Below are positions 5,179 through 25,707 of a stretch of DNA of 64,000 nucleotides, piece by piece. A model generated the notes under the pieces. It had not been told where the DNA came from. It made no database searches and was given only the letters and a program-made list of their open reading frames with translations. How positions within the stretch are numbered: the stretch's first letter is position 1; every line of letters starts with the position of its first letter. The translations under genes and the position numbers were made by a program. This DNA comes from a virus, in the IMG/VR virus record IMGVR_UViG_3300048930_000192, positions 1 to 64,000 of that record. The stretch is one strand, 5' to 3'.

Positions 5179-6366
5179 TTAGCAGCCTTTCTTGTTCTTT
5201 ACTGTTGCGTTCTTATCAATACCAGTCTTCTTTAACCAACGGGCTTGCTTTGCAAGATCTCTTGTAGATGGACCATTTTTCTTAGAAGGGCGATCACCGT
5301 CGAATACTGGCTTCTCGCTGATTGTGTTAGTATCACCTTCTAGGTCTTCGCCCAATTTTCTTTTTGCTCGTTCATCTTTCTTGATATAAGGATTTACTGG
5401 GTTTCTTTTTGTGCCAGAAGATTTCCAATTTGGTTTTGTAGTAACATCTCTACTATTGGGGCTAAATTTATTGAGTCTATTTCTGTAGGCTTTTAGTCGT
5501 CTATTGAATCCACCTTTGTCTGATGGAACGGATGCCGCATTACCATCATCGGTGCCATCGTCGTCATGTGGTGCTTTCTTTAATAGTCTACCCAAAGATT
5601 TAGAAACCTTTGACTTAACAAGGTTATTTTTTAAATTTTGGTTTCCACTATTTGCAAGTTTTTTCCATTTTCTAGGTGTTGACTCGTCTAGATTTTCAAC
5701 TTCTAGGTCTTCTTTCTTCAAACCACCGGCAGCTTTGCGCTTCGCGTCTGCTTCCGCAGCCTTACGGGCAAGATATGCCTTACGATCTTTAGCAATCTTA
5801 AGGCCCTGCTTTGGCATCAAGTTATCTTCTGGAGTGTCGTCGGATCTTTCTGGGCGCCGTTCGTCGTCACGAAGACCAGCAAGGCGATTCTCATTGATTT
5901 CGTCTTCGTCCTCTTCGTCTTCTGCGAAGTGATTAAGCACATCCTCTAGATTGTCAGCAGATTCGCTAACCAATGCAGCAAAGATGTTTCTATTTTCTTC
6001 GTCTAGGTTATCGTAGATGTCTACAATAGACTCAGAAAGTTCGGTGTCTATTTCGACTACTTCACCGTCTGGATAAGTATATTCGAAACTATCACCGGTT
6101 CTGTAACTTTCTGCAATAGCAGGCAGTAATCCACTGTCGTATTCATTAAGAATGCAACTTTCAGATATAGTAAAGTACTTGTTATAAAGACCAAGTTCTT
6201 CTGCAATTTCAATCAACCGATTAGAAATTTCTTCATCCGCAATGCGTTGCGCAATGATAGAAAGAGCCTCAGTGATATCTTGCACTTCTTCTGAAATCAA
6301 AGAATTGGTGTCTTCGACGAGTTCGTTTGATTCGTCTAGCCGTATTTGTCTAAAATCTTTCATCAT
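5179..6366 (-). CDS. Charged head-locus protein, acidic N-terminus and basic C-terminus
   Basis: 395 residues, unrecognised by sequence. Residues 1-160 are acidic and probably helical (ending in AEDEEDEDEINEN); residues about 180-395 are Lys/Arg/Asn-rich and low complexity, similar in style to the next gene, including an ERAKRKLGED motif that resembles the AEREKRKVG repeat downstream. It sits directly after portal gp20, where T4 has the prohead core genes 67 and 68, so a scaffold or core role is plausible. An AAAGGA ribosome site precedes the ATG-ATG start. The bipolar charge layout could let it bridge a basic partner and an acidic one, but that is inference. Confidence 0.65.
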   Translation of the reverse strand: MMKDFRQIRLDESNELVEDTNSLISEEVQDITEALSIIAQRIADEEISNRLIEIAEELGLYNKYFTISESCILNEYDSGLLPAIAESYRTGDSFEYTYPDGEVVEIDTELSESIVDIYDNLDEENRNIFAALVSESADNLEDVLNHFAEDEEDEDEINENRLAGLRDDERRPERSDDTPEDNLMPKQGLKIAKDRKAYLARKAAEADAKRKAAGGLKKEDLEVENLDESTPRKWKKLANSGNQNLKNNLVKSKVSKSLGRLLKKAPHDDDGTDDGNAASVPSDKGGFNRRLKAYRNRLNKFSPNSRDVTTKPNWKSSGTKRNPVNPYIKKDERAKRKLGEDLEGDTNTISEKPVFDGDRPSKKNGPSTRDLAKQARWLKKTGIDKNATVKNKKGC

Positions 6367-6374
6367 TCTTTCCT

Positions 6375-8114
6375 TTATAACTTGGGAAACTTTTTAATAT
6401 CTGGAAGTTCTTTATCTTTCAACTTATCTTCTTTGTCGTATTGTCTGGGATCGTATTTCTGCCCATACTCGTTATCGGGTGCCTCGCCACCAAATTCATC
6501 TTGACGTTGATTTGGTTGTGATAAACCCTGTTTGACCTTCTCGTCGTTGTCAAATTTATCAATTTCAACTTTATTTATTATATCCTGTTTGTTCTCGTCT
6601 TCTATTTCTTCTTGCATCTGCTTGACTTCTTGGTCATCACGACGAAGAACATTCTTTAGAACATACGCTCTACTATAATACTTGCCAATATATGGCTCCA
6701 TATTAGTAATTGTAGAAAGACGTTCATTCTCAACTTCAAGTTCTTTAAGTTCACTAAAGTACATATCTTGCAAGAAGTGGAATCTTATCTTTGGCTTTAG
6801 TTCTTCCCAATATTCGTCTGTAACGATACCCTTTAGAATTAGCTGCTTACGAAGCAAATCATAAAATAAATCTGCGAACTTGGTTCTTAGTCTTTCTATG
6901 AACTTGGCAAATTTAATTTCATCTCTACTAATTTCTGTAGATCTACCAATTTGAAAACTCTTTTGTTCGCTTTGTAGACGAGAAAAGGGTATGTTCAAAC
7001 TCTTATACAGTTTATTTAAGAAATACTGAACGTCATCAATTTGGTTTAGATTGCTTGCACCGGGCAATGTGCTAATTGTAGTGCCGTTAGATCCGGCAGA
7101 TTTTGGCATCCAGAAGTCTTCTAGTACGCTCATATATCTACGGTCATCTCTTACTTCACCGGTAGCGGCGTCATACTGCAATTTAGAACGGTACTTAGTA
7201 ATTAACTCTTTAAGATATTGCTCTGCTTTAGGTCTAGGCAGGTTACCAACGTCTACGTTAAATACTCGGCGCTCTGGTGCTCGTGCAAGACGATAAATTA
7301 CCATCGAATCTTCGAGCATCTTAACTTGATTCATTGTGCGAATTGCTTTATGCAAATGCCCGTAAATCAACTTTTTAGTCGGATCATATAAACCAGAATT
7401 AACATATGTTATAATATCTGGGCTAAGTTTAAATGCCTTCATTTGAGGTGAAGATCTAATTAGTGGATTAGAATTGTCTATACTATCTCTAGAATACAGA
7501 TAAAACTCTTTTGTGCCAGTAATTAATTCATTACCGTTCTGATCTTTTTCTTTTGTAATTTCTCTTACTTTGCGAATATTAAGAGGATCAACATATCTGA
7601 CTTCTAGAATACCTTTAGAAGTATCCTTTTCATCTATGATAGTATGAAAGTATAATCTGGCATCAACATACCATCTCTTAAAAAGGTCATACCCTCTGCT
7701 GCGAAATTGAATTAGTTCTAGCACCTTTTCAAATTCTAAATTAATCTTGTCTCTAGTTTCTGGTCGTAACCATTCTAATTCATTAGCTTTGTCTAATATT
7801 AGCTTAACTGGATTTTCAATTTCGTCTGTAACAATAGCCTCGTTTACAATTTCTTCGATGGCTACGTCAATTTCTGGAAATGAACTCATGCTACGATAAC
7901 GAAGAATTACTTCATTATCATTGCGATAAGTGCCGTCCATGTCTAAGCTATAAGTCTGAAAGACACCATCTGCTGATGGTGCTCTTTCAATATTAATAGC
8001 TCCGTCGTCATAGTCGGGTGGAACAAATGACGCCTTCTTGTCTTCCAACTTTTCTAAAGCCGGAGACGGTTTGTTTATCCAGCCGAACATTTCACCGAAC
8101 TTTGGGAACTTCAT
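6375..8114 (-). CDS. 20: Portal vertex protein gp20
   Basis: Dodecameric portal through which DNA is packaged and ejected, and the initiator of prohead assembly. The 579-residue protein has strong gp20 character: an early MDGTYRNDNEVILRYR block near residue 60, the conserved EIDVAIEEIVNEAIV segment, RAPERRVFNVDVGNLP near residue 280, and FWMPKSAGSNGTTISTLPGA near 340, followed by the helical SEQKSFQIGRSTEISRDEIK region. The C-terminal 60 residues are Lys/Asp/Gln-rich. Length is close to T4 gp20 (524). It lies between tube gp19 and the 67/68-type genes, as expected. The ribosome site is AAAGG about 11 nt before the ATG. Confidence 0.96.
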   Translation of the reverse strand: MKFPKFGEMFGWINKPSPALEKLEDKKASFVPPDYDDGAINIERAPSADGVFQTYSLDMDGTYRNDNEVILRYRSMSSFPEIDVAIEEIVNEAIVTDEIENPVKLILDKANELEWLRPETRDKINLEFEKVLELIQFRSRGYDLFKRWYVDARLYFHTIIDEKDTSKGILEVRYVDPLNIRKVREITKEKDQNGNELITGTKEFYLYSRDSIDNSNPLIRSSPQMKAFKLSPDIITYVNSGLYDPTKKLIYGHLHKAIRTMNQVKMLEDSMVIYRLARAPERRVFNVDVGNLPRPKAEQYLKELITKYRSKLQYDAATGEVRDDRRYMSVLEDFWMPKSAGSNGTTISTLPGASNLNQIDDVQYFLNKLYKSLNIPFSRLQSEQKSFQIGRSTEISRDEIKFAKFIERLRTKFADLFYDLLRKQLILKGIVTDEYWEELKPKIRFHFLQDMYFSELKELEVENERLSTITNMEPYIGKYYSRAYVLKNVLRRDDQEVKQMQEEIEDENKQDIINKVEIDKFDNDEKVKQGLSQPNQRQDEFGGEAPDNEYGQKYDPRQYDKEDKLKDKELPDIKKFPKL

Positions 8115-8137
8115 TATAATTTACAACCTTTGCGAAT

Positions 8138-8674
8138 TTAGCTCGTGGTGCCAAGAGTTCTGTAATACTGATATTGTAGAGTTACTTGGAATGTTTCGAT
8201 TTCTGTTGCAGGCGTCTGATCAAGGTCGATGCTAGATACAACACTTGGCCAGCAATCTACGAACGAATATTTCTTGACATCTCTGCCTTCTCTGTCAATT
8301 TGAGTTACAGTCCAGTCAAACGCATACGAAGCAAGACCGTTACGACCCACGTTGCTTTCAATGCGGTTCATAATATCACTCCATCTTTCGAAGGCGTTAC
8401 GCAACGAAAAGTCGTTATCGTTATAAACTGTAATTGCCCATGGCGCAAATGCACGGTCGCCTGCAAGCTTCAAGTATCTACCTTGAAACGGTACAGTACA
8501 TACACCAAGGTTTGCTTCTGGCAAAGAAGCAGCACGAACCAAAAATCTGATCTTATTTGACGGATTCAGCCCGGCTGCTGCGACACTTTCACCGGGAAAT
8601 ATACCGTCCACGCGGAAGAGGTTTCTTCTAGCGCCACCGAATCCCAGTTCATTTTTGAACATCGATATATTCAC
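8138..8674 (-). CDS. 19: Tail tube protein gp19
   Basis: Stacks as hexameric rings to form the inner tail tube. 178 residues, close to T4 gp19 (163). Typical features are the GGARRNLFRVDGIFP start, FLVRAASLPEANLGVCTVPFQGR, and the C-terminal ATEIETFQVTLQYQYYR. The best start is a GTG at 8674, because AAGGAG lies 7 nt upstream; the next in-frame ATG, at 8662, would be badly spaced. A late promoter-like AATAAATA lies 30-40 nt upstream, so this gene can be expressed independently of the homing endonuclease gene that separates it from the sheath gene. Confidence 0.95.
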   Translation of the reverse strand: MNISMFKNELGFGGARRNLFRVDGIFPGESVAAAGLNPSNKIRFLVRAASLPEANLGVCTVPFQGRYLKLAGDRAFAPWAITVYNDNDFSLRNAFERWSDIMNRIESNVGRNGLASYAFDWTVTQIDREGRDVKKYSFVDCWPSVVSSIDLDQTPATEIETFQVTLQYQYYRTLGTTS

Positions 8675-8705
8675 CGATTTACTCCTTGAATTAATACTAC
8701 AAATC

Positions 8706-8713
8706 TATTTATT
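8706..8713 (-). promoter_or_regulatory. Late promoter-like core for gp19
   Basis: AATAAATA on the minus strand, one mismatch to TATAAATA. The predicted start gives a leader of about 25 nt containing the AAGGAG site of gp19. It lies just downstream, in transcription order, of the hairpin ending the endonuclease gene. Confidence 0.5.
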
Positions 8714-8716
8714 TAA

Positions 8717-8748
8717 TTTGATCCAAACAATTTACTGTTTGGATCAAA
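8717..8748 (-). terminator. Hairpin after the homing endonuclease gene
   Basis: Perfect 13-bp stem with a 6-nt loop, about 20 nt after the endonuclease stop. It is followed by an AT-rich stretch rather than a pure T-run, so it may act as a weak terminator or an RNA-stabilising hairpin. It resembles the hairpin after gp18 (9656-9685). Confidence 0.65.
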
Positions 8749-8766
8749 ATGGTTACTTAAAGGGCA

Positions 8767-9639
8767 TTATAAAGCGTTTAGGGCCGTGATCTCGTCAATT
8801 AAACCAGAATATACTTCATTGCATTTTTGTATAGTATATCCGTGGTGTGGAAATGTGAATCCGCCGTAATTTTTGTTATTTTTTACTGTTTTTAGTTTTC
8901 TGTAAATAGACATAAGTGCTCTTATTAGTTTATCGTCGTTTATTACTGTGGATAAAGTTTTTGTGAACTTGACCGTGTTATCTGGTAATGTTACTTTCCA
9001 TGTGTAACTATGATACTTGTTTCCTTTATTTATGTTTCTAAGGTTATTTTTATGCTCTTCTGTTCTCTTATATCGTGCTGCACATCTAATCTTTTCTTTA
9101 GATTCTTCGCATAATATAATTTTCCTGCCAGTATTAGCTTTTCTTAACTTTTCTCTTGTTTCTGCACTGGCTACACGACCACGACTAGCATCACCGATCT
9201 TTTTTCTTGTTTCAGCAGAAAATTTTCTACCAATATTTGCAATTCGTAGTTTTTCTATTACCTCTTGTGGTCTAGGAATACCCCTGCGAGATTTGCTCAT
9301 TTTTTTCTTTGTTTCGTCGTTGTGAGTCGGGCATCCACCGCCACCAGAATTTGAGTTTAATCCACATAAATTGCTGTTATATTGCTCTATGTAAAATATC
9401 TCTTTTTTTAGAGCATCAATTTTAGACAAATTTTCTTCTAATATAGAACACTTGAAGTAATCTTTGCCATATTTTAACAATTCAGACTGAAACTTTGATA
9501 CAATTTTGCCCTTTTTGTGCAAATTTTGAGCATTATAAAAATGAGAATGGAATCTTCTATGGGCTTGTGATGATGTCACGCCTATGTAAATTTGGCTTGT
9601 AGGAATACACGTTATTTTATATACTAAGAATCTTTTCAT
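8767..9639 (-). CDS. GIY-YIG homing endonuclease with a sheath-like C-terminus
   Basis: 290-residue free-standing homing endonuclease of the SegA/I-TevI type. The N-terminal nuclease domain (1-95) shows LVY at 5-7, YIG at 18-20, the catalytic-region Arg near 28-29 and the metal-binding Glu near 80-85 (KKEIFYIEQYNSN). Residues about 107-210 contain several NUMOD3-type DNA-binding motifs (repeats like RKKIGDASRGR and REKLRKANTGR). The remainder is a plant-HNH-like or HTH-type tail. It lies between sheath gene 18 and tube gene 19 as an insertion. Its last residues, DEITALNA plus one, repeat the C-terminus of gp18 almost exactly. No Shine-Dalgarno sequence is visible and a hairpin lies just upstream, so expression may be low. 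Confidence 0.92.
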   Translation of the reverse strand: MKRFLVYKITCIPTSQIYIGVTSSQAHRRFHSHFYNAQNLHKKGKIVSKFQSELLKYGKDYFKCSILEENLSKIDALKKEIFYIEQYNSNLCGLNSNSGGGGCPTHNDETKKKMSKSRRGIPRPQEVIEKLRIANIGRKFSAETRKKIGDASRGRVASAETREKLRKANTGRKIILCEESKEKIRCAARYKRTEEHKNNLRNINKGNKYHSYTWKVTLPDNTVKFTKTLSTVINDDKLIRALMSIYRKLKTVKNNKNYGGFTFPHHGYTIQKCNEVYSGLIDEITALNAL

Positions 9640-9655
9640 TTATTTTATCCAAAAT

Positions 9656-9685
9656 ATGGTTCAACCTCATTACAGGTTGAACCAT
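9656..9685 (-). terminator. Hairpin after the tail sheath gene
   Basis: Perfect 12-bp stem with a 6-nt loop, 4 nt after the gp18 stop, followed in the transcript by ATTTT. It probably limits read-through from gp18 into the endonuclease gene. Confidence 0.65.
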
Positions 9686-9689
9686 GGTA

Positions 9690-11435
9690 TTATATCGCGT
9701 TTAACGCGGTAATCTCATCGAATGATACGTTGGAACGGGTCGCCACAAAGCTAAGCGCTATGGTCGAGATGCTCCTGCTAGGTTTTACAAATATAGTTGC
9801 CACGAATCTATTGCCATCAACTACCTCTGCGGTGTTGTTGGTTTCGTCACAAACAACCTTGAAGTCAAAGATACCTCTACGAGATTGTACGTCACGAAGG
9901 AACGGCTCTATTGTAGATACGAAGATTGCGCGAGTAAAGGCGTCGTTGAACTCGAACAACTGATACTTGGCAGCAATACTAATTGCCTTCTCTAGAGTGA
10001 TGAACAATCTACGAACATTGATTCTATCGAATGCACTTGGCTTAGTCTGCGCAGTCTTATCGCCATACAGAATAGTGCCCTCACCAGGGAACGTAACAAC
10101 AGGGTTTACACCCTTCGAATACAATGCATCTCTGTGAGCAGAAGTAGGATTATATGCAAGTTTAGAAAGGTTACGAATTTGACCACGATTGAATCCGGCT
10201 GGCGACCACCACGGATCGTTGGTAAGATCGGTTCTGGCGCAAAGACCAGCAATATCAGAGTTTAGACAGGTCCAACGGTAAACGTCATTATAACGGTCAT
10301 ACTGCTGTCTGTAACCGGTGTCAATAAAGCAATAGCTGTTATTGCCGATTGTGTTGCGAAGATCAAGGCAGGTATCCAACTTAGTTTGTTCAGTTGCAAC
10401 TGGGTTCTTGACATCAGGCGACACAAAGGCCACACAATCAAGACGAGCCTTGGCAATATCTGCAACGTCTTTGGCAGCAGTCTTGCCAAGTGGCCCAGCA
10501 ATTAGCAGAGAAACGTCTACGTTGTCGGTATTGGTAAACATACCATAACCTTCGCCGGAGCTAGAAGAGATGGTAGATTCGGATGGGGCGACTGCGTTGC
10601 CACCGGTGAATGTATAACTTGCACTGCCAGTCAATGAACTCCAAGAATATGCATTCGGAGTGATTATACCAAATGACCCACCTTCTTTTGCGTCACGGGT
10701 AGATATGCCAGTTGGGTGGTTGATCCACCATACATACTTAGAATCGTTCAAGATGTCAACGTAGTAATTTGAGCTGCCGTCCGCCTTGCGGGCACCACGA
10801 GCCTTGCTCAAACCTTCGTGCAATTCGAGAATAGATCCAGTAGATCCACTGAATTTACCATTCAAGTCACGAATTACAATGTGGATTTCATCGTTAACAC
10901 CACCCAAACCTTCTACAAACGGCGAAGTACCAGGTGGATTGGTAAAGTACGCACTGAGCGACCAACCATTGAAAGCAGTCACACCGTCGCACAGATCAAT
11001 CTGCAAGCTGTTTCCAAGTTTACCAGCATACTTACCAGCAATTGCAACTCCTGTGCCACCGCCGCCGCCGAGCCAACCACCGTTTGAAGAAACATTAGAT
11101 TCATAATGATCTGAATTCTTTATAAGAATTGGGCTGGGTGTAGAAGTTGCGCCGGCTACTGCGTTGGTGCTACTACTGTCAACAACTCTTACTACTTGAA
11201 GATTGTTACCGTATGCTAAGAAATTTGCTGCGCTAAAGAAATACTGATAGGTATTTGCGTCAGGTGCGCCAAATAGCTGCACCAAACTAGATTCACTATC
11301 AATCAGAATTCTTTGTGCAACCGGGCCCCAACTAAAGTACCCTGCAATACCAGCAGGCGTGGTAGCCACTGCTGGAATTATGGTACTTAGATCGGTTTCC
11401 TGGACCAAAACTCCAGGGCTTACTTGAAATGCCAT
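9690..11435 (-). CDS. 18: Tail sheath protein gp18
   Basis: Contractile sheath subunit. 581 residues (T4: 659). It begins MAFQVSPGVLVQETDLSTII with the typical PAGIAGYFSWGPVAQ block, has the central GEGYGMFTNTDNVDVSLLIAGP domain, and ends with the conserved C-terminal sheath domain (NVRRLFITLEKAISIAAKYQLFEFND and FNDAFTRAIFV). The extreme C-terminus, FDEITALNAI, is echoed in the adjacent homing endonuclease. The ATG has AAGGAG upstream and a GATAAATA late core. It is followed by a hairpin, so the sheath transcript probably ends or is processed here. Confidence 0.96.
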   Translation of the reverse strand: MAFQVSPGVLVQETDLSTIIPAVATTPAGIAGYFSWGPVAQRILIDSESSLVQLFGAPDANTYQYFFSAANFLAYGNNLQVVRVVDSSSTNAVAGATSTPSPILIKNSDHYESNVSSNGGWLGGGGGTGVAIAGKYAGKLGNSLQIDLCDGVTAFNGWSLSAYFTNPPGTSPFVEGLGGVNDEIHIVIRDLNGKFSGSTGSILELHEGLSKARGARKADGSSNYYVDILNDSKYVWWINHPTGISTRDAKEGGSFGIITPNAYSWSSLTGSASYTFTGGNAVAPSESTISSSSGEGYGMFTNTDNVDVSLLIAGPLGKTAAKDVADIAKARLDCVAFVSPDVKNPVATEQTKLDTCLDLRNTIGNNSYCFIDTGYRQQYDRYNDVYRWTCLNSDIAGLCARTDLTNDPWWSPAGFNRGQIRNLSKLAYNPTSAHRDALYSKGVNPVVTFPGEGTILYGDKTAQTKPSAFDRINVRRLFITLEKAISIAAKYQLFEFNDAFTRAIFVSTIEPFLRDVQSRRGIFDFKVVCDETNNTAEVVDGNRFVATIFVKPSRSISTIALSFVATRSNVSFDEITALNAI

Positions 11436-11473
11436 TGTTTAATTCTCCTTAAAGCCTTTTTATGTACGTTAGA

Positions 11474-11481
11474 TATTTATC
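11474..11481 (-). promoter_or_regulatory. Late promoter-like core for gp18
   Basis: GATAAATA on the minus strand, one mismatch to the T4 late consensus. It lies in the 58-nt gap between gp17 and gp18 and would give a leader of about 33 nt containing AAGGAG. Confidence 0.55.
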
Positions 11482-11493
11482 TTTTTGAGGTTT

Positions 11494-13263
11494 TTAAAAG
11501 AATGCATCCAATCGATCTTGCCCCTCTTCACCACGATTATAATGACGTTTTGTATAGTCTCGTATTCTATCAAAATCGTCTCTTTTTCTGTCCATATTCG
11601 ACTTTTCTTCTGCCAATGCCCGCATATCTGCTTCTGGTGATTCTGATGGATCGTAGAAATCTATAGTGCCGTCGTCGATGAATCCAAACAGACTGACGCT
11701 TTCTTCTAGTTTGCGCATTCTTTCTTTGTATAGATTTTTCTTTAAACTTATATTGGTATAATCTTGGAAATACGTCTGAGTAGTCAACCATGCGAAGGCA
11801 ACTAAAGTCATTACAAGGTCGTCGTGGGTGTCTTTTCTTGCTTGATAAGAACCATTAGTCTTTGTAGACCGAACGAAATTGCTCAATTCAGAAACAATAT
11901 CAAAGTCTGCAAATATTAGTTTCTTATCGACAATAAGATCCTTTAGCTGGGCACAGCCTTGAATCTTTACTGGCCCAGACATCTTTAGACCATATCTTAT
12001 ATGCTTGCCGCCGAAGCCACCGTCTGCCTTTTGACCAGACTTGTCTTCTGAACTAATCAATATTAGATTTGGATAACAAACCTCGTCACTATTCATATCA
12101 GCAGCCACTGCTTCGCCAAGGTCGTTTAATTCGACTAACATATATGCATCATTGTACTGCCGACCAATGCGAGCAAGTATGTTTGGCAATAGCTTTGGGT
12201 TAACAGTATTATTCTTGAATGTTGCGACTACTTTGTATGGTATTTCTGTGCAATCTATTATAGTTGCGGCATGATAATCTTCGCCCATACCTCTACTGGT
12301 ATCTACGCACATCGTATACGTTCTACCCTGTTTGGGCACTTCGTAAATCTTCAATCCTTCTTCGTTTGAATACAACGGATCTGCATATACCATTTCCATA
12401 AGAGCAGATGGTGGCAATAGTGTATTATCTGATCCCAGGAATTCGACTTCATATTCAGACCGCCACTTAGATTCCTTGTTTGAAGGAAAGTTAGCCATGA
12501 CGGTTTGCTTGAATTTCTCATCTCTGCCAGGCACTTCATTCCACTTAGCAGTGCAGGTAGCATAGTTATTTCTACCATGCTCACTGTCGTTCCATAGTTT
12601 ATAAAACATATTAAGACCGTTTGGTGTACTAACTATGATAAGTTTGGTTGTATTACCAGACGTAATAGTTGGAAACACCGAGCTAAAGAATTCCTCTGCA
12701 ATATTTGGACTAATGAACGCGAATTCGTCGATGATAACGATATTAGCACTTTGGCCACGAATTGCGCTTGCGCTGGTTGCATTGACTCTAACTTTGCTGC
12801 CATTTTCTAGATGAATAGAGTGTTTATTCCATTCAACGACACCCTGCTGCATCCATTTAGGCAAATTCTCGTATGCTAGTTTTACTACGTCCAATAAATT
12901 TTTTGCAGTATCTTCTTTGTTGGCAAGAATAGAAACCTTGACGTTGCTATTAAACAGAATATAATGAAGAACATATGCCATAGTTGTAGTAGACTTGCCA
13001 GACTGACGAGCACACCGTACTAGCACAAATCGGTTATTGTGCATAGTATTAATCATATTTTTCTGAAAATTGTAAGGTTTAAACTTAGTAACACCATGAT
13101 CGAGTGTAACAATGTTAACGTAGTTTTCCATAAAATATACAGGGTCTTCTGCACATTTAGTAAGTTCTACAATTTGTTCTTGAGAAAACTCATATTGTAT
13201 ACCAACTGGCTTTAATTGTGAATTGCCAAGATAGCTGTCATCTGGATTGTTCATTTTCGCCAT
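11494..13263 (-). CDS. 17: Terminase large subunit gp17
   Basis: ATP-driven packaging motor and DNA-cutting nuclease. 589 residues (T4: 610). The ATPase domain shows Walker A CARQSGKST (84-92) and Walker B VIIDE (176-180), followed by a coupling motif VSTPNG near 211-216. The RNase H-like nuclease domain begins with the conserved VDTSRGMGEDYHA (Asp 321 region) and includes DTHDDLVMTLV near the C-terminus. The start overlaps the end of gp16 by 26 nt, so the two terminase subunits are probably translationally coupled. There is no intein or frameshift. Confidence 0.97.
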   Translation of the reverse strand: MAKMNNPDDSYLGNSQLKPVGIQYEFSQEQIVELTKCAEDPVYFMENYVNIVTLDHGVTKFKPYNFQKNMINTMHNNRFVLVRCARQSGKSTTTMAYVLHYILFNSNVKVSILANKEDTAKNLLDVVKLAYENLPKWMQQGVVEWNKHSIHLENGSKVRVNATSASAIRGQSANIVIIDEFAFISPNIAEEFFSSVFPTITSGNTTKLIIVSTPNGLNMFYKLWNDSEHGRNNYATCTAKWNEVPGRDEKFKQTVMANFPSNKESKWRSEYEVEFLGSDNTLLPPSALMEMVYADPLYSNEEGLKIYEVPKQGRTYTMCVDTSRGMGEDYHAATIIDCTEIPYKVVATFKNNTVNPKLLPNILARIGRQYNDAYMLVELNDLGEAVAADMNSDEVCYPNLILISSEDKSGQKADGGFGGKHIRYGLKMSGPVKIQGCAQLKDLIVDKKLIFADFDIVSELSNFVRSTKTNGSYQARKDTHDDLVMTLVAFAWLTTQTYFQDYTNISLKKNLYKERMRKLEESVSLFGFIDDGTIDFYDPSESPEADMRALAEEKSNMDRKRDDFDRIRDYTKRHYNRGEEGQDRLDAFF

Positions 13264-16685: not shown

Positions 16686-17347
16686 TATATTAATTTTGGA
16701 TAATAATAATTCGAAGCTGTCATTTTAACTGTTGGGTTAGTAGAGCCACCACCATACTCTATTCTAGCAACCTTTCCGCCATTTAATCCAATTGCGATAT
16801 CTGAAATCTCTGGTACAGCAAGACTAGTATCTTTTGTAATGATGGTGCCGCCATTAACTCTATACTTTGTTGGTCCTGTTGCACCGGTGAGACTTCCCCA
16901 GCCGACAGTGTCATCTAAGTCTCTAAGCATTGCCACACTATCTTGCACATAAACTGCTGCGCAAAAATTATTACTAGAAGCAATACCGGGAGAAGCAATA
17001 AAGGATGAGTAATAAACTTCGCCGCTGCTGTTGTTTGCGTAAATTATACCGCTATCGACCCCTGAACAAGTGCTACCAATATTTCCTACGCTGCTATGAG
17101 ATATAATGTAACCAATCGGTGCACCGTATACATTAACTGTCCAGTTTATTCGATTATCGTCGGAGTTTGCATTTACTGGCTTTTTTAGCGTAGTAAACGT
17201 CGAATTATTTAATACAACAACGCCTGCGTCTACGCAGTTTGATATATTGCCATAAGAATTTGATTCAAAATACGAGTTATTTTTTACAATTATACCATTA
17301 ATACAATTTGAGATATAGAATTGTGGATTACTCATCTGGTGATACAC
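16685..17347 (-). pseudogene. C-terminal beta-helix part of a split tail fibre
   Basis: 220 codons from a GTG at 17347. The sequence is a run of short repeats rich in Asn, Ser, Gly and Ile (ISNCINGIIVKNNSYFE, then VDAGVVVLNNS), the pattern of a right-handed parallel beta-helix used in phage fibres and depolymerases. It continues in sense the helix that breaks off at the end of the upstream 818-residue ORF, and it overlaps that ORF by 20 nt in the +1 frame. No ribosome site precedes the GTG. A single extra base in a run of four identical bases (17347-17350) explains the split: removing one would make one protein of about 1032 residues. It could also be expressed by +1 frameshifting, or reflect a sequencing error. 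Confidence 0.65.
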
Positions 17348-19784
17348 CCCTTGATTTGACGAAAGCGTTTTCTACATATAGGCCGTATTCGAATCCTTCT
17401 AGCCATACATTGTCTTTAATTAGTATGTTTCCACCGTTCTTGACGTATATTCCTTTACCACTAGATCCAGTAACATTGCCAATTAATACTAGAGGCCGTT
17501 TCATTTCATTGTCGCCAATCGTAAAACAGTTGTTTGGACCTTCAGACAAGAAGCAGCAATAGTGGGGGTGTGTTATTCCTTGTGCGACACCCATCATATT
17601 ATTTGGCAAATTAATTGCCACCGATGCAAATTGCATGTGGCCGCTCAAAGAATCAAGTGGGTTACCGGTTATACCAATAGAACTACTAGGTGTTATTCCC
17701 TTGGGAACTTTTACTAGTATATCTACGTTAAAGTCGCCAAATGTCGGGGATCCACTCACAATAGCTTGTAGTTTGTGTACACCATTCATATACGCAGGAG
17801 TCACACCGGGGCCAAAACATACATATCCATTATCAAGAAAGTCATCCGATGCGCCTGTTCCACTCATCAGCCAATAATTGTAGTTTGGATCGCCCAGTGG
17901 TCCAGTCGGACCAGTTACATTAAACGACCCTCTCATGACAAGGGTATTGGGATCACTATATGACTGAGTTCTGTATACAAGCTTTTCTGGATGATCCGAA
18001 ATATATCCGTCTGGAGTTACAATCGGATATGCCAGTGTATATTCACCGGGGGCAAATTCGACGGTTACTTTGCCAAGCCCCTGCTGAGCAGTTGTGTAGT
18101 TAATTTGATCGAATGTTGGTATATTGGCCGCACCACCAGGCAATCCCGGAATTGCATGAGAATCTGAAAACTCATATTTAACAATGTCGCCAGGATTGAC
18201 CTCAATAAGTACTTCGTTTGTTGCTGGCGTGGTTGTGCCAGATCCCGGTGCGCCGTCTGCACCAGACGGCCCTTGAGGACCATCTGCGCCGGTGGGCCCT
18301 GTTGGACCTGCGGGTCCAGTGGGCCCGGTACTACCATTAGCACCGTTAGTACCATTCGTGCCGTTAGTGCCGTTGGTGCCAGTGGGTCCTGCGGCGCCAG
18401 TGGGTCCTGCGGCGCCAGTGGGTCCTGCGGCGCCAGTGGGTCCTGCGGCGCCAGTGGGTCCTGCGGCGCCAGTGGGTCCTGCAGCACCGGGTGTGCCTTG
18501 TGGGCCAATTTCAATGCCTGCGCCGCTTAGTTTCTTATATCGAATAATATAATTGCTCGACACATATGGTGATATATTTGTAAATGGGGTATTTGTAAAT
18601 TCAATTGGATTATTACCACTGGGAATATAATCTTTACCAGTCGAAATAACAGAATTTCTTGCAACTCGTATAGTTGCAGCAGAAGTATATCCTGTTGATA
18701 CACCAGTTATACCAATTTCATGGCTGTGACTAGGAAGATTTGCTTTAGACAAAATGATGTTTTCTTCACCACTCATGTAGCCGTGTGGATAAGAAGCTAG
18801 CCCGTGACCAGTATTGCTACCAACTACGAATCTACCTCTTAAATCTGGTACAAAGAATTTCGTGCTAGTCAGCCCTGCACTCGGCGCAGATCCATACGAA
18901 GAAATTTTAATTGTGGTAGATGAAGTTGTTGTTAAACTTGCAGCACCGGCAATAGTATATTCATTGACAAATCTGCAAAAATTATCTGTTGAAGAAGCAG
19001 ATGTAATTTTTGCAACTATTCTATTTGTGCAACTTGCTGTTGGCGAAGACGGAATTGGCCAACCGAATTCATATCTATCACCAAGTTCAAATCCGTGATT
19101 TTTTGTATGATAAGAAGCTGGATCACTTAGACCGTCATTAAATGTAACTGTACCACTTAGACCGATACCAGTAATACCACCAAAGATATAATATCTGTCG
19201 GCTATTACACCATACAGATCCTCGTATTCGCCAGTTAGACTTGGCGATCCAGATGTAACGTCTTTAGGAAATGCGTCACCATTACAAAGTAGCCAATTTC
19301 CTGGAATATTATTTGGCAAGCCACCGTACGCAATAATAGTACCAACTGGTGTATATAATCCAACTTCACCGCCACCACTAGAACTTGTTCGTAGACTATT
19401 AACTACTATACCAGATGTGACTCCGGTTGCTATGAGTATAGGGTTGGTAATATGACTACTTACATTTGGTGCGCCTGTCAACGATCCAGAAAGCGATCCA
19501 GACAGATAATATATGTTTCCGGGTGTATAAGACACAGAGGGCGAACTGAACGCCCCCTGCATAATTAATTCAAAGCTGCTACCATTAGCAGATTCAACTA
19601 TACCACCAGCAAAACTAGTAGCACTTGAATCAGCTATAGCCAACCGCCAACCAGTCGAAGTATTATATACGACTTGACCCGGAGAAAAACTATTAGATTG
19701 ATTTACTAATATTTTTATACGGCTACCGTCAGAAGATCCACCACTAAGACCGTATATACTTGGATTGATTGCACTATAAGCCAT
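17328..19784 (-). CDS. Tail fibre protein with collar domain and collagen-like repeats
   Basis: 818 residues. Domains in order: an N-terminal adaptor-like beta region (1-155) that resembles the corresponding part of the 1288-residue fibre; a phage tail collar domain (about 158-425) with IIAYGG...[23 protein letters not shown] and the metal-type LPSHSH motif; a Gly-Pro-Thr collagen-like stretch (about 430-520) that includes six identical GPTGAA repeats; and a parallel beta-helix start (about 570-818) ending abruptly in [10 protein letters not shown]. The beta-helix continues in another frame downstream, so this gene is probably frameshifted. It is likely part of a host-recognition fibre. GGGTAAATCATAA before the ATG may serve as the ribosome site. 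Confidence 0.85.
18379..18486 (-). repeat. Six tandem 18-bp repeats coding for GPTGAA
   Basis: Six 18-bp units, five identical and the last slightly diverged, inside the collagen-like region of the 818-residue fibre gene. Copy number can change by slippage or recombination in steps of six residues without breaking the frame. Confidence 0.9.
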
Positions 19785-22981: not shown

Positions 22982-23749
22982 TTATCGAAATAATATATCA
23001 CATGCCCCTGTGGCAGGATCTGCTACACCATCACCACCGGATTCTGTAAAACCGATGCATATGGCATTGTTACGAGCGCCGTACGCAAGATCTATCCACC
23101 CAGAATCATAATATCCAGTTCCAGCCATACTAGTTTCTACCTGCGATGACAGCCCCAATTGTAGAAAATTTGAAACAGTTGTGTTGTAGGAAGTATAATA
23201 TTTAGCAGTGAATAGCGAGCCGGCGGTACCAACAACTTGCTTATTTACTCTAAACCTAACTTGAGTATAACCAGCCAAGTCGACCATGAATAAATGTCTC
23301 GTAGTATTACCAGCAAATCTTTCTGCCAAAGTAGCGTTGGACATTGCAAAATTTCCTGCGGCGTTGCCGTGTACGGTGAAAGATTTGATTGGTTTATACG
23401 ATCCGTCTGTTATCCAACCAACACCAGACTCATACGTTACAGCATCTCCCGAATCAAGCACAGAAGAATATAACGTGGCACCACACTCTATTGTTATTGC
23501 ATGAGATATTGTGTCCATATTTACAAGCCGCATAAATTTTACATTTTTTACTGTTGCCGTTGATGAAGGTCCAGCAACAATATTTACCACACTTGTGCCA
23601 TTAGAATCAGAAACGCTATTGTCCCATGTTGGCAAAGATGAGCCATTGACTGTAATTTCATTAAAAGACGCATAGCATTCTATTGGAACTGTGTCATGTG
23701 CTTCATCGAGCACCATTGTTAAATTCTGAGAGTTCTTTATTGTTATCAT
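22982..23749 (-). CDS. Unknown protein of the fibre cluster
   Basis: About 255 residues of beta-rich, Thr/Ser/Gly/Val sequence, with repeated short hydrophobic strands ([20 protein letters not shown]). The preferred start is the ATG at 23749, 6 nt after GGAG and overlapping the stop of the preceding gene as ATGA; a GTG 12 nt upstream is less likely. The C-terminal half ([20 protein letters not shown]) resembles lectin-like or jelly-roll virion domains in style, but no family can be named. It lies between two collagen-like fibre genes and is probably a fibre tip or accessory protein. Confidence 0.6.
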
Positions 23750-25707
23750 ATCATACTCCACATTATTATTTCGGCGACAGACATTGAATTAATACCGGCT
23801 GGTCCTGTGGCACCTGTAAGACCAATTGGTCCTGTTGGTCCTGTTGGTCCTGTTGGTCCTGTGGCACCTGTAAGACCAATTGGTCCTGTTGGTCCTGTTG
23901 GTCCTGTGGCACCTGTAAGACCAATTGGTCCTGTTGGTCCTGCAATACCTTGTGCCCCTGTGTCACCAGTTGGTCCTGTTGGTCCTGTTGGTCCTGTGGC
24001 ACCTGTAAGACCAATTGGTCCTGTTGGTCCTGCAATACCTTGTGCCCCTGTGTCACCAGTTGGTCCTGTTGGTCCTGTGGCACCTGTAAGACCAATTGGT
24101 CCTGTTGGTCCTGCAATACCTTGTGCCCCTGTGTCACCGGTTGGTCCTGTTGGTCCTGTGGCACCAGTGGCACCGAAAAGAGAGATACCATCTTGATCTA
24201 TTTGCATCGATAAAATATCGATAAAGTCTAAATCGCCAATTTCGTTTGGTATCGCAATATACAAACTAGCTTCGTCGATATTATACCATAGTTTGCCGAT
24301 TGTCGCGGCGGGTGGTGATGCGCTAACTTCTACCGCAAAATCGCCGGTAATAGTAGAACCAGATACCGAAGAGCTGAAGTAGATGGTATTTGTAAGCTCG
24401 TCGGAATAGATGGACACACCACCATTGCCAACTAACCGTAATATTTCTCCAGAACTTCTGTCGGTTTCTGATAGTCTATACTTGGCAACAAGATTCTGAC
24501 TACCAGAAACAGATATTGTATGAAATGCCTCACCAAGACCACCACCTGAAGATATTACATTTTGCTTTGGTAAATATTTCGAAAGCTTTTCATAATCAAT
24601 ATCAAGAACATTATTATTTAATCGTAAAAATGTATTTGGTTTTACAGATATTATTGTACTTGTGCCCGCTGGACCGGTTTCACCCCTCGGACCAACCTCA
24701 CCTCTTAGACCATCTTTACCATTTAAGCCTTTATCGCCCTTTGGTCCCGTTGGTCCAATATCACCTTTATCGCCCTTTGGTCCCGTTGGTCCAATATCAC
24801 CTTTATCGCCCTTTGGTCCTGTTGGTCCAATATCGCCTTTATCACCGGTAGGTCCCGTTGGTCCCGTTGGTCCAATATCGCCTTTATCACCCTTTGGCCC
24901 GGCGATGCCTTTATCGCCTTTATCACCCTTTGGCCCGGCGATGCCTTTATCGCCTTTATCACCGGTAGGTCCTGCTGCTCCCGTTGGTCCAATATCGCCT
25001 TTATCGCCGGTAGGTCCTGCTGCTCCCGTTGGTCCAATATCGCCTTTATCGCCTTTATCGCCTTTATCACCCTTATCACCCTTATCACCCTTATCACCCG
25101 TTGGTCCTGTTGGGCCTGTTGGGCCTGTCGGACCTACAGGCCCAACAGGCCCCCTTTCACCTTTTACACCACTGGGACCAATGTCACCTTTATCACCCTT
25201 TGGTCCATCCATACCTCTTGGGCCTTGTATGCTAATACTATCAGATGATTTTTGCTGGTAAGATATATTTTCTGATATAATTGATGGAACATTTGATGTT
25301 TTTAGACCCGAGATAGATAATAGATTCGATCTATACCTACTAGAAATAGTATCATAATTTCCGTAATCGTCTGCTATTAGGATCTTATCGTTTACATTCT
25401 TGAATTTATAAACTGAGCCTTTGTCATAATTCAAAAATGATTCTGTGCAAATAACTTCGTCGTTGTCATATAAAGACAAAATATCGATATCGAAAAGTTT
25501 GTTTATAGATTTAATAGATCCGGTCACCCTTGTGACGATATCTTCATTCAAATTCTTAATCAATACAACAAAATTCCCAGAATCCAATTTATAGTCTTCT
25601 ACAATTTCATTTGAAATTGATTTTACTACTTCAACAACACTAAATTCTTTAATAGATCCAACAGACTTTAGTATTGTATATTTTACTGGGAAATTATGTT
25701 CTTCCAT
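23746..25707 (-). CDS. Collagen-like tail fibre protein B
   Basis: 653 residues. The N-terminal domain (1-155) is an SH3-like or unknown beta fold with repeated [19 protein letters not shown]-type strands. Two collagen-like regions flank a central globular beta domain: the first (about 157-350) is charged, built of GDKGDK, GPKGDK and [14 protein letters not shown] units; the second (about 510-637) is neutral, built of GPTGPTG and [13 protein letters not shown] modules. The protein ends soon after the second block. It is likely a trimeric fibre. The start overlaps the 189-residue gene by 25 nt and the stop overlaps the next gene as ATGA, so these genes are translationally coupled. Confidence 0.8.
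23798..24175 (-). repeat. Collagen-like repeat block, C-terminal part of fibre B
   Basis: Three near-identical modules encoding [19 protein letters not shown] plus GPTGPTG linkers. They match those in fibre A at 22576-22866 almost base for base, so recombination between the two genes is possible. Confidence 0.85.
24660..25233 (-). repeat. Charged collagen-like repeat block in fibre B
   Basis: Long series of Gly-Asp-Lys, Gly-Pro-Lys and Gly-Pro-Thr triplets, with tandem 9- and 27-bp-scale DNA repeats. Charged Lys-Gly-Asp patterns are known to stabilise bacterial and phage collagen-like triple helices that lack hydroxyproline. Confidence 0.85.

Follow-up and report, generated by a model that had tools for sequence, protein, structure and literature searches.

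Two diverged copies of a tail sheath gene end flank a homing endonuclease gene in a phage genome and suggest replacement of the resident end

Free-standing homing genes of phages are commonly thought to insert between genes without altering the gene products. In the mitochondria of Glomus and Allomyces macrogynus, endonuclease mORFs bring foreign C-termini to host genes (i.e., A. macrogynus atp6 and Glomus atp6, atp9, cox2, and nad3), and in the resulting hybrid genes the native end is displaced downstream and the divergence is mostly synonymous (PMC3630166). Mitochondrial introns of Tremella carry an N-terminal duplication of the host gene (PMC7315562). In T4-type phages, the free-standing Seg endonucleases are encoded by GIY-YIG genes between essential genes, and co-conversion extends to flanking sequence during intronless homing in T4 (PMC2988022). 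No displaced gene end is described for the Seg endonucleases in the passages searched of that review, nor gene-end replacement in those of the ICP1 nuclease study (PMC10448857). No displaced gene end was seen beside an endonuclease in about 149 kb of T4 scanned, and no phage report of gene-end replacement was found in the literature searched, the coverage of which was incomplete. Its occurrence in phages is likely but not certain to be new, and the loci described below would be the phage counterpart of a mechanism that we found described only for fungal mitochondria.

The window (i.e., the whole stretch of 64,000 nucleotides that was analyzed) corresponds to positions 1 to 64,000 of a virus contig of 131,810 bases. 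The minus-strand order of genes at the locus is terminase, gene 18, endonuclease, gene 19, and portal, with the names of the flanking terminase and portal genes resting on gene order and sequence. The features are as follows, with the evidence in parentheses.

9690..11435, minus strand: gene 18, tail sheath protein, 581 aa (Pfam PF04984, PF17482, and PF22671; PDB gp18 matches)
9690..9815, minus strand: candidate imported gene-18 3' end, from codon 541 through the stop, with an approximate left boundary (diverged residues 541-574 and analogy with locus L110)
9696..9719, minus strand: copy 1 of DEITALNA, in gp18 (codon comparison and pattern search)
9656..9685, minus strand: hairpin 1 after the gp18 stop, 12-bp stem, loop GTAATG (hairpin scan)
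8767..9639, minus strand: free-standing homing endonuclease by its domains, 290 aa (PF01541, 1.9e-8; PF07460, 2.3e-5)
9373-9627, minus strand: GIY-YIG domain of the endonuclease (domain placement)
8773..8796, minus strand: copy 2 of DEITALNA, at the C-terminus of the endonuclease; probably the native gene-18 end, displaced (codon comparison)
8717..8748, minus strand: hairpin 2 after the endonuclease stop, 13-bp stem, loop GTAAAT (hairpin scan)
8138..8674, minus strand: gene 19, tail tube protein (PF06841, E = 2e-6, narrowly short of the curated cut-off; gp19 of the relative L003 is 63% identical)

The tail sheath protein gp18 ends in FDEITALNAI, and the adjoining endonuclease ends in IDEITALNAL. 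The two copies of DEITALNA show six nucleotide differences in 6 of 8 codons, every one of them synonymous, and the flanking codons also differ (F/I and I/L). Synonymous changes make up 22% of the single changes possible in this stretch, and an all-synonymous outcome was obtained in 10 of 400,000 simulations of six random changes (about 2.5e-5). A preliminary description of this DNA had reported the C-terminal likeness and read the synonymous divergence as a sign of protein-level selection on the copied stretch; its translations, coordinates, and codon list were all correct. A mORF-type arrangement, with two diverged copies of one gene end flanking an endonuclease ORF, is thus present in the window, and the sequences support a derivation of the two ends from two diverged gene 18s. 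The preliminary description had also considered that such an end might be common to endonucleases of this family rather than derived from gp18, but DEITALNA stands at the end of none of the other endonucleases examined, and the likeness to the relatives is confined to the GIY-YIG/NUMOD3 part.

The copied stretch is short (9 codons), as a chance similarity of two short C-termini would be, but that explanation is scarcely credible. A degenerate DEITALNA pattern has two matches in the window, in neighboring genes, against an expectation of zero, and among the 2.9 million viral contigs of IMG/VR (possibly excluding records of this same genome) it occurs only inside unrelated proteins and never at a C-terminus; the likeness is therefore not due to chance, in line with the preliminary description. 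Furthermore, both copies are anchored at a stop codon and followed by a hairpin, and the arrangement recurs at other endonucleases (see below).

The likeness continues beyond the two stop codons, which goes further than the preliminary description: each copy has a perfect hairpin of its own there, and no other intergenic hairpin with a stem of at least 8 bp occurs in the late module (1288-48292; 47 kb). Their sequences are only weakly alike (P = 0.04 versus random hairpins). A wider noncoding likeness, equaled by 2 of 5,000 shuffles and partly overlapping the coding start of the endonuclease, is taken as no more than suggestive. In the endonuclease-free relatives L003 and L096 to L099, gp18 is directly followed by a hairpin, the gp19 ribosome site, and gp19; the sequence between copy 2 and gp19 is thus laid out like the native junction. 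Third-position GC in copy 2 is gene-like (0.75, compared with 0.26 for the body of the endonuclease; P = 0.005). Elsewhere in the window, a hairpin with a 17-bp stem at 25112-25152 arises from Collagen-like repeats inside an ORF at 23746-25707, and Collagen-like repeats also occur in a tail-fibre-like protein at 17328-19784.

The endonuclease is composed of a GIY-YIG domain, NUMOD3 motifs, and a C-terminal region without family assignment. Its catalytic domain scored 34.9 bits against a PF01541 cut-off of 22.6, and the modular DNA-binding part contains three stretches of NUMOD3. The catalytic domain of I-TevI also matches (E = 0.001); in this alignment, the catalytic Arg of the first helix is aligned (RRFHSHF with KRWKRHF), and the catalytic Glu of I-TevI pairs with a Lys, a Glu standing two residues on. 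Structure prediction for the endonuclease alone was too poor for use (mean pLDDT, 39). On its domains, the protein is assigned as a GIY-YIG/NUMOD3 homing endonuclease, of which the cleavage activity and target are predicted. A second, weak relative of its NUMOD3 part (45% over about 40 residues) lies elsewhere in the record, within a frame of 230 aa (104472-104591; L084).

Phage spliced genes with endonucleases are known (e.g., in ICP1; PMC10448857), and an endonuclease lying inside a self-splicing intron, or being bypassed, would make the downstream end a real alternative end of gene 18. This is extremely unlikely here. Gene 18 is complete and reaches a stop and a hairpin of its own ahead of the endonuclease, and no Rfam intron match was found around the endonuclease (window 7500-12000; E up to 1) or, for intron families, at nine other loci of the survey described below (E up to 0.1).

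We consider it probable that the endonuclease came with a foreign gene-18 3' end that replaced the resident end, and that the resident end was pushed downstream by about 0.9 kb; there it would form the end of the endonuclease frame, ahead of gene 19. Displacement is favored because of the synonymous-only divergence, the paired hairpins, the GC of copy 2, the divergence of gp18 residues 541-574, the recurrence at other loci, and the direction of import at L110. Against it stand the shortness of the copied stretch, the weak likeness between the hairpin sequences, and the long branches of both gp18 sequences with an outlying C-terminal divergence. The cassette entering the gene 18/19 junction would have consisted of a foreign, synonymously different gene-18 3' end (with stop and hairpin) followed by the endonuclease gene. 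An endonuclease-free gene 18 would have been cut by the enzyme near its 3' end, and repair of the break would have placed the donor gene-18 end and the endonuclease gene in the recipient, a route modeled on T4 intronless homing (PMC2988022) and the fungal mORFs. With a working C-terminus supplied by the donor, the recipient gene 18 would have remained whole, and its own terminal codons (about nine), together with the stop and hairpin, would have been left as a remnant behind the endonuclease. That remnant apparently happened to be in frame and so became the last nine residues of the endonuclease. The recoded end may also remove the target site, a possible way for a carrier to be spared by the enzyme that it encodes.

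In this proposed history, the locus resembles the fungal mORFs in that a foreign C-terminal end accompanies an endonuclease (a GIY-YIG enzyme in the atp9 case), the gene stays whole, the native end lies downstream, and most of the divergence is synonymous (PMC3630166). It differs from them in that it belongs to a phage genome and has a free-standing enzyme between late virion genes, in that the copied end is very short and includes a 3' hairpin, and in that the native remnant is fused as the last residues of the endonuclease.

Recurrence was assessed at 82 viral loci with related GIY-YIG/NUMOD3 endonucleases, which were scanned for diverged copies of neighboring gene ends by local alignment and then by stop-anchored ungapped matches. 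Besides the window, this survey yielded five 3'-end copies (three clear), located after the endonuclease or at its very end, and two mirror-image 5'-end copies. At L110, the copy is of the 3' end of a C39-peptidase/endolysin-like gene (26 codons; 18 of 27 positions identical, including the stop), and at L149 it is of a neighbor gene of unassigned function (22 codons). At L161, the endonuclease behind a B-family DNA polymerase gene ends in the last residues of the polymerase, TLEDFFG (copies at 1660-1692 and 2478-2511; last 21 bases identical), a sequence that we take to look like a clamp-binding peptide. The 3'-end copies at L156 and L124 are weaker. Comparable matches were found at 2 of 1,270 control gene ends, both in small early genes of the window's own genome, and the strongest control matches are explained by a common C-terminal motif in an apparent family of small paralogues in the early region of that genome. 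The excess at endonuclease loci (5/82 versus 2/1270; Fisher P of about 1e-5) is approximate, as loci are set against gene ends. Survey matches at L107, L129, L158, and L134 were dropped since both partners were endonuclease-like or repeats, and that at L114 was dropped as a probable annotation artefact. The phage collection contained no relative above 60% for the L161 polymerase, and no informative empty-site relative was found for L149. On the same viral contig as the L149 locus, a tmRNA gene (1531-1959) of the permuted or beta type was identified by Rfam.

In the two mirror-image loci, a copy of the 5' end of the downstream gene stands before the endonuclease. The copies at L137 (2886-2970 and 3758), which precede a polymerase gene, encode MPNVVETKK with seven differences, all synonymous, and the weaker ones at L139 (about 2899-2940 and 3641) encode PITRINK with six differences, again all synonymous; the 5' end of L195, a relative of L137, is unrelated. 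These loci have the orientation of the Tremella elements, with which the window shares the exchange of a gene end via an inserted endonuclease-type element as a mirror image (PMC7315562). The Tremella elements are introns at the 5' side, whereas no intron family was found at the window.

The survey bears on whether selection maintains the copied tail for a function in the endonuclease, e.g., for binding the sheath and entering the virion, as the preliminary description had suggested. The tail is in frame and undamaged, and the endonucleases of L156 and L161 likewise end in the C-terminus of a neighbor. Nevertheless, this function is quite improbable, and the suggestion is not borne out. Three of the six 3'-end copies (L110, L149, and L124) lie outside the endonuclease frame, so fusion to the endonuclease is not required, and three fused copies of six fit chance reading frames. 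The conserved C-terminal segment of gp18 before DE is absent from the copy, which takes in only the nine residues after it, and the neighbors concerned include a polymerase and a peptidase, not virion proteins alone. The gene-like third-position GC of the tail also sets it apart from the endonuclease body.

The direction of import is best seen at L110 and at L188 and L190, where a similar endonuclease follows the peptidase gene, together with L189 and L191, which lack the endonuclease. The peptidase genes of L110 and L189 are 65-93% identical over roughly the first 390 bases and 53-62% over the last 200, and the remnant behind the L110 endonuclease is 82% identical to the L189 gene end (91 bp). 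In the final 27 codons, L189 agrees with the remnant at 67/81 positions and with the in-gene end at 47/81; the corresponding figures for L191 are 59/81 and 49/81. The downstream flank of L191 scores 118 with the sequence after the remnant and 22 with the sequence after the gene stop. Because the endonuclease-free loci match the remnant and its downstream flank better, these sequence comparisons show that the in-gene end at L110, L188, and L190 is foreign and came with the endonuclease and that the native end was displaced. In L190, the endonuclease is frameshifted near its end and the remnant is unchanged.

Two ends and two hairpins would also result if the gene-18 end had long ago been duplicated in tandem in a single lineage, the endonuclease had inserted between the copies, and synonymous drift had followed. 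This history is very unlikely. The downstream copy would then serve no purpose for gene 18, and yet all changes in its shared codons are synonymous; furthermore, the L110 case requires two source lineages.

For the window, the nearest gp18 relative is that of L003 (57% identity), which ends in FEEITALSQPGLGARS; T4 gp18 carries FDELTGL near its end. A relative closer than L003 was not found via gp19, bacterial and archaeal genome contigs, or blastn, and IMG/VR and the phage collection yielded neither a close endonuclease-free relative of the window nor a donor lineage for the in-gene end. At the DNA level, the two copies are not told apart by the L003 flank (scores of 17 and 14). Across gp18 residues 541-574, the mean identity to the four nearest gp18s falls from 0.77 to 0.57; in a set of 34 dereplicated sequences, the residual is about -5.5 sd. 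The sole equal outlier is L067, another T4-type phage, and both outliers are long branches; the gp18 of L059 is also low in C-terminal identity, and its end is disrupted. In L067, a nuclease ORF (5884-6390; HNH/endonuclease VII-like by PHROGs, phrog_5104) lies between genes 18 and 19, and a displaced gp18 end was looked for beside it and not found. This divergence favors an imported in-gene end, being supportive rather than conclusive.

As no close endonuclease-free relative was found, we infer the direction of import in the window from the L110 case and the gp18 divergence: the in-gene copy (9696-9719) is probably foreign, and the copy at 8773-8796 is probably native. The preliminary description had proposed the reverse, in which an element made of the endonuclease and a foreign gene-18 tail came to lie after a resident gene 18 that stayed intact. 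That the element arrived with a foreign gene-18 end is most likely correct, but the copy fused to the endonuclease is probably the native one. The final layout would be identical under its version, and codon usage, measured against gp18 or the late genes, fails to tell copy 1 from copy 2. That version is unlikely nonetheless, given the foreign in-gene end and native remnant at L110, the native-type gp19 leader adjoining copy 2, and the unusually diverged C-terminal segment of gp18.

These loci suggest that some homing genes swap the end of a neighboring gene for a foreign, recoded one, with the old end remaining behind as a fossil. The copies of gene ends would be a direct sequence signature of past homing, and where relatives exist, the remnants tell which copy was native. 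Phage homing endonucleases might even commonly travel as cassettes of an endonuclease plus a spare gene end that rewrite the 3' or 5' ends of essential genes, a widespread and unrecognized route by which phages would exchange parts of their structural and replication genes with one another and gene ends would become fused to endonucleases; we give this generalization slightly less than an even chance.

The early region of the record (93270-117668; L093 and L094) contains about twenty short ORFs (61-116 aa) with a common C-terminal motif similar to G(S/E)Y...(F/I)D(E/P)TG(L/V/I). At least 22 ORFs fit a loose pattern, and they apparently form a small paralogue family.
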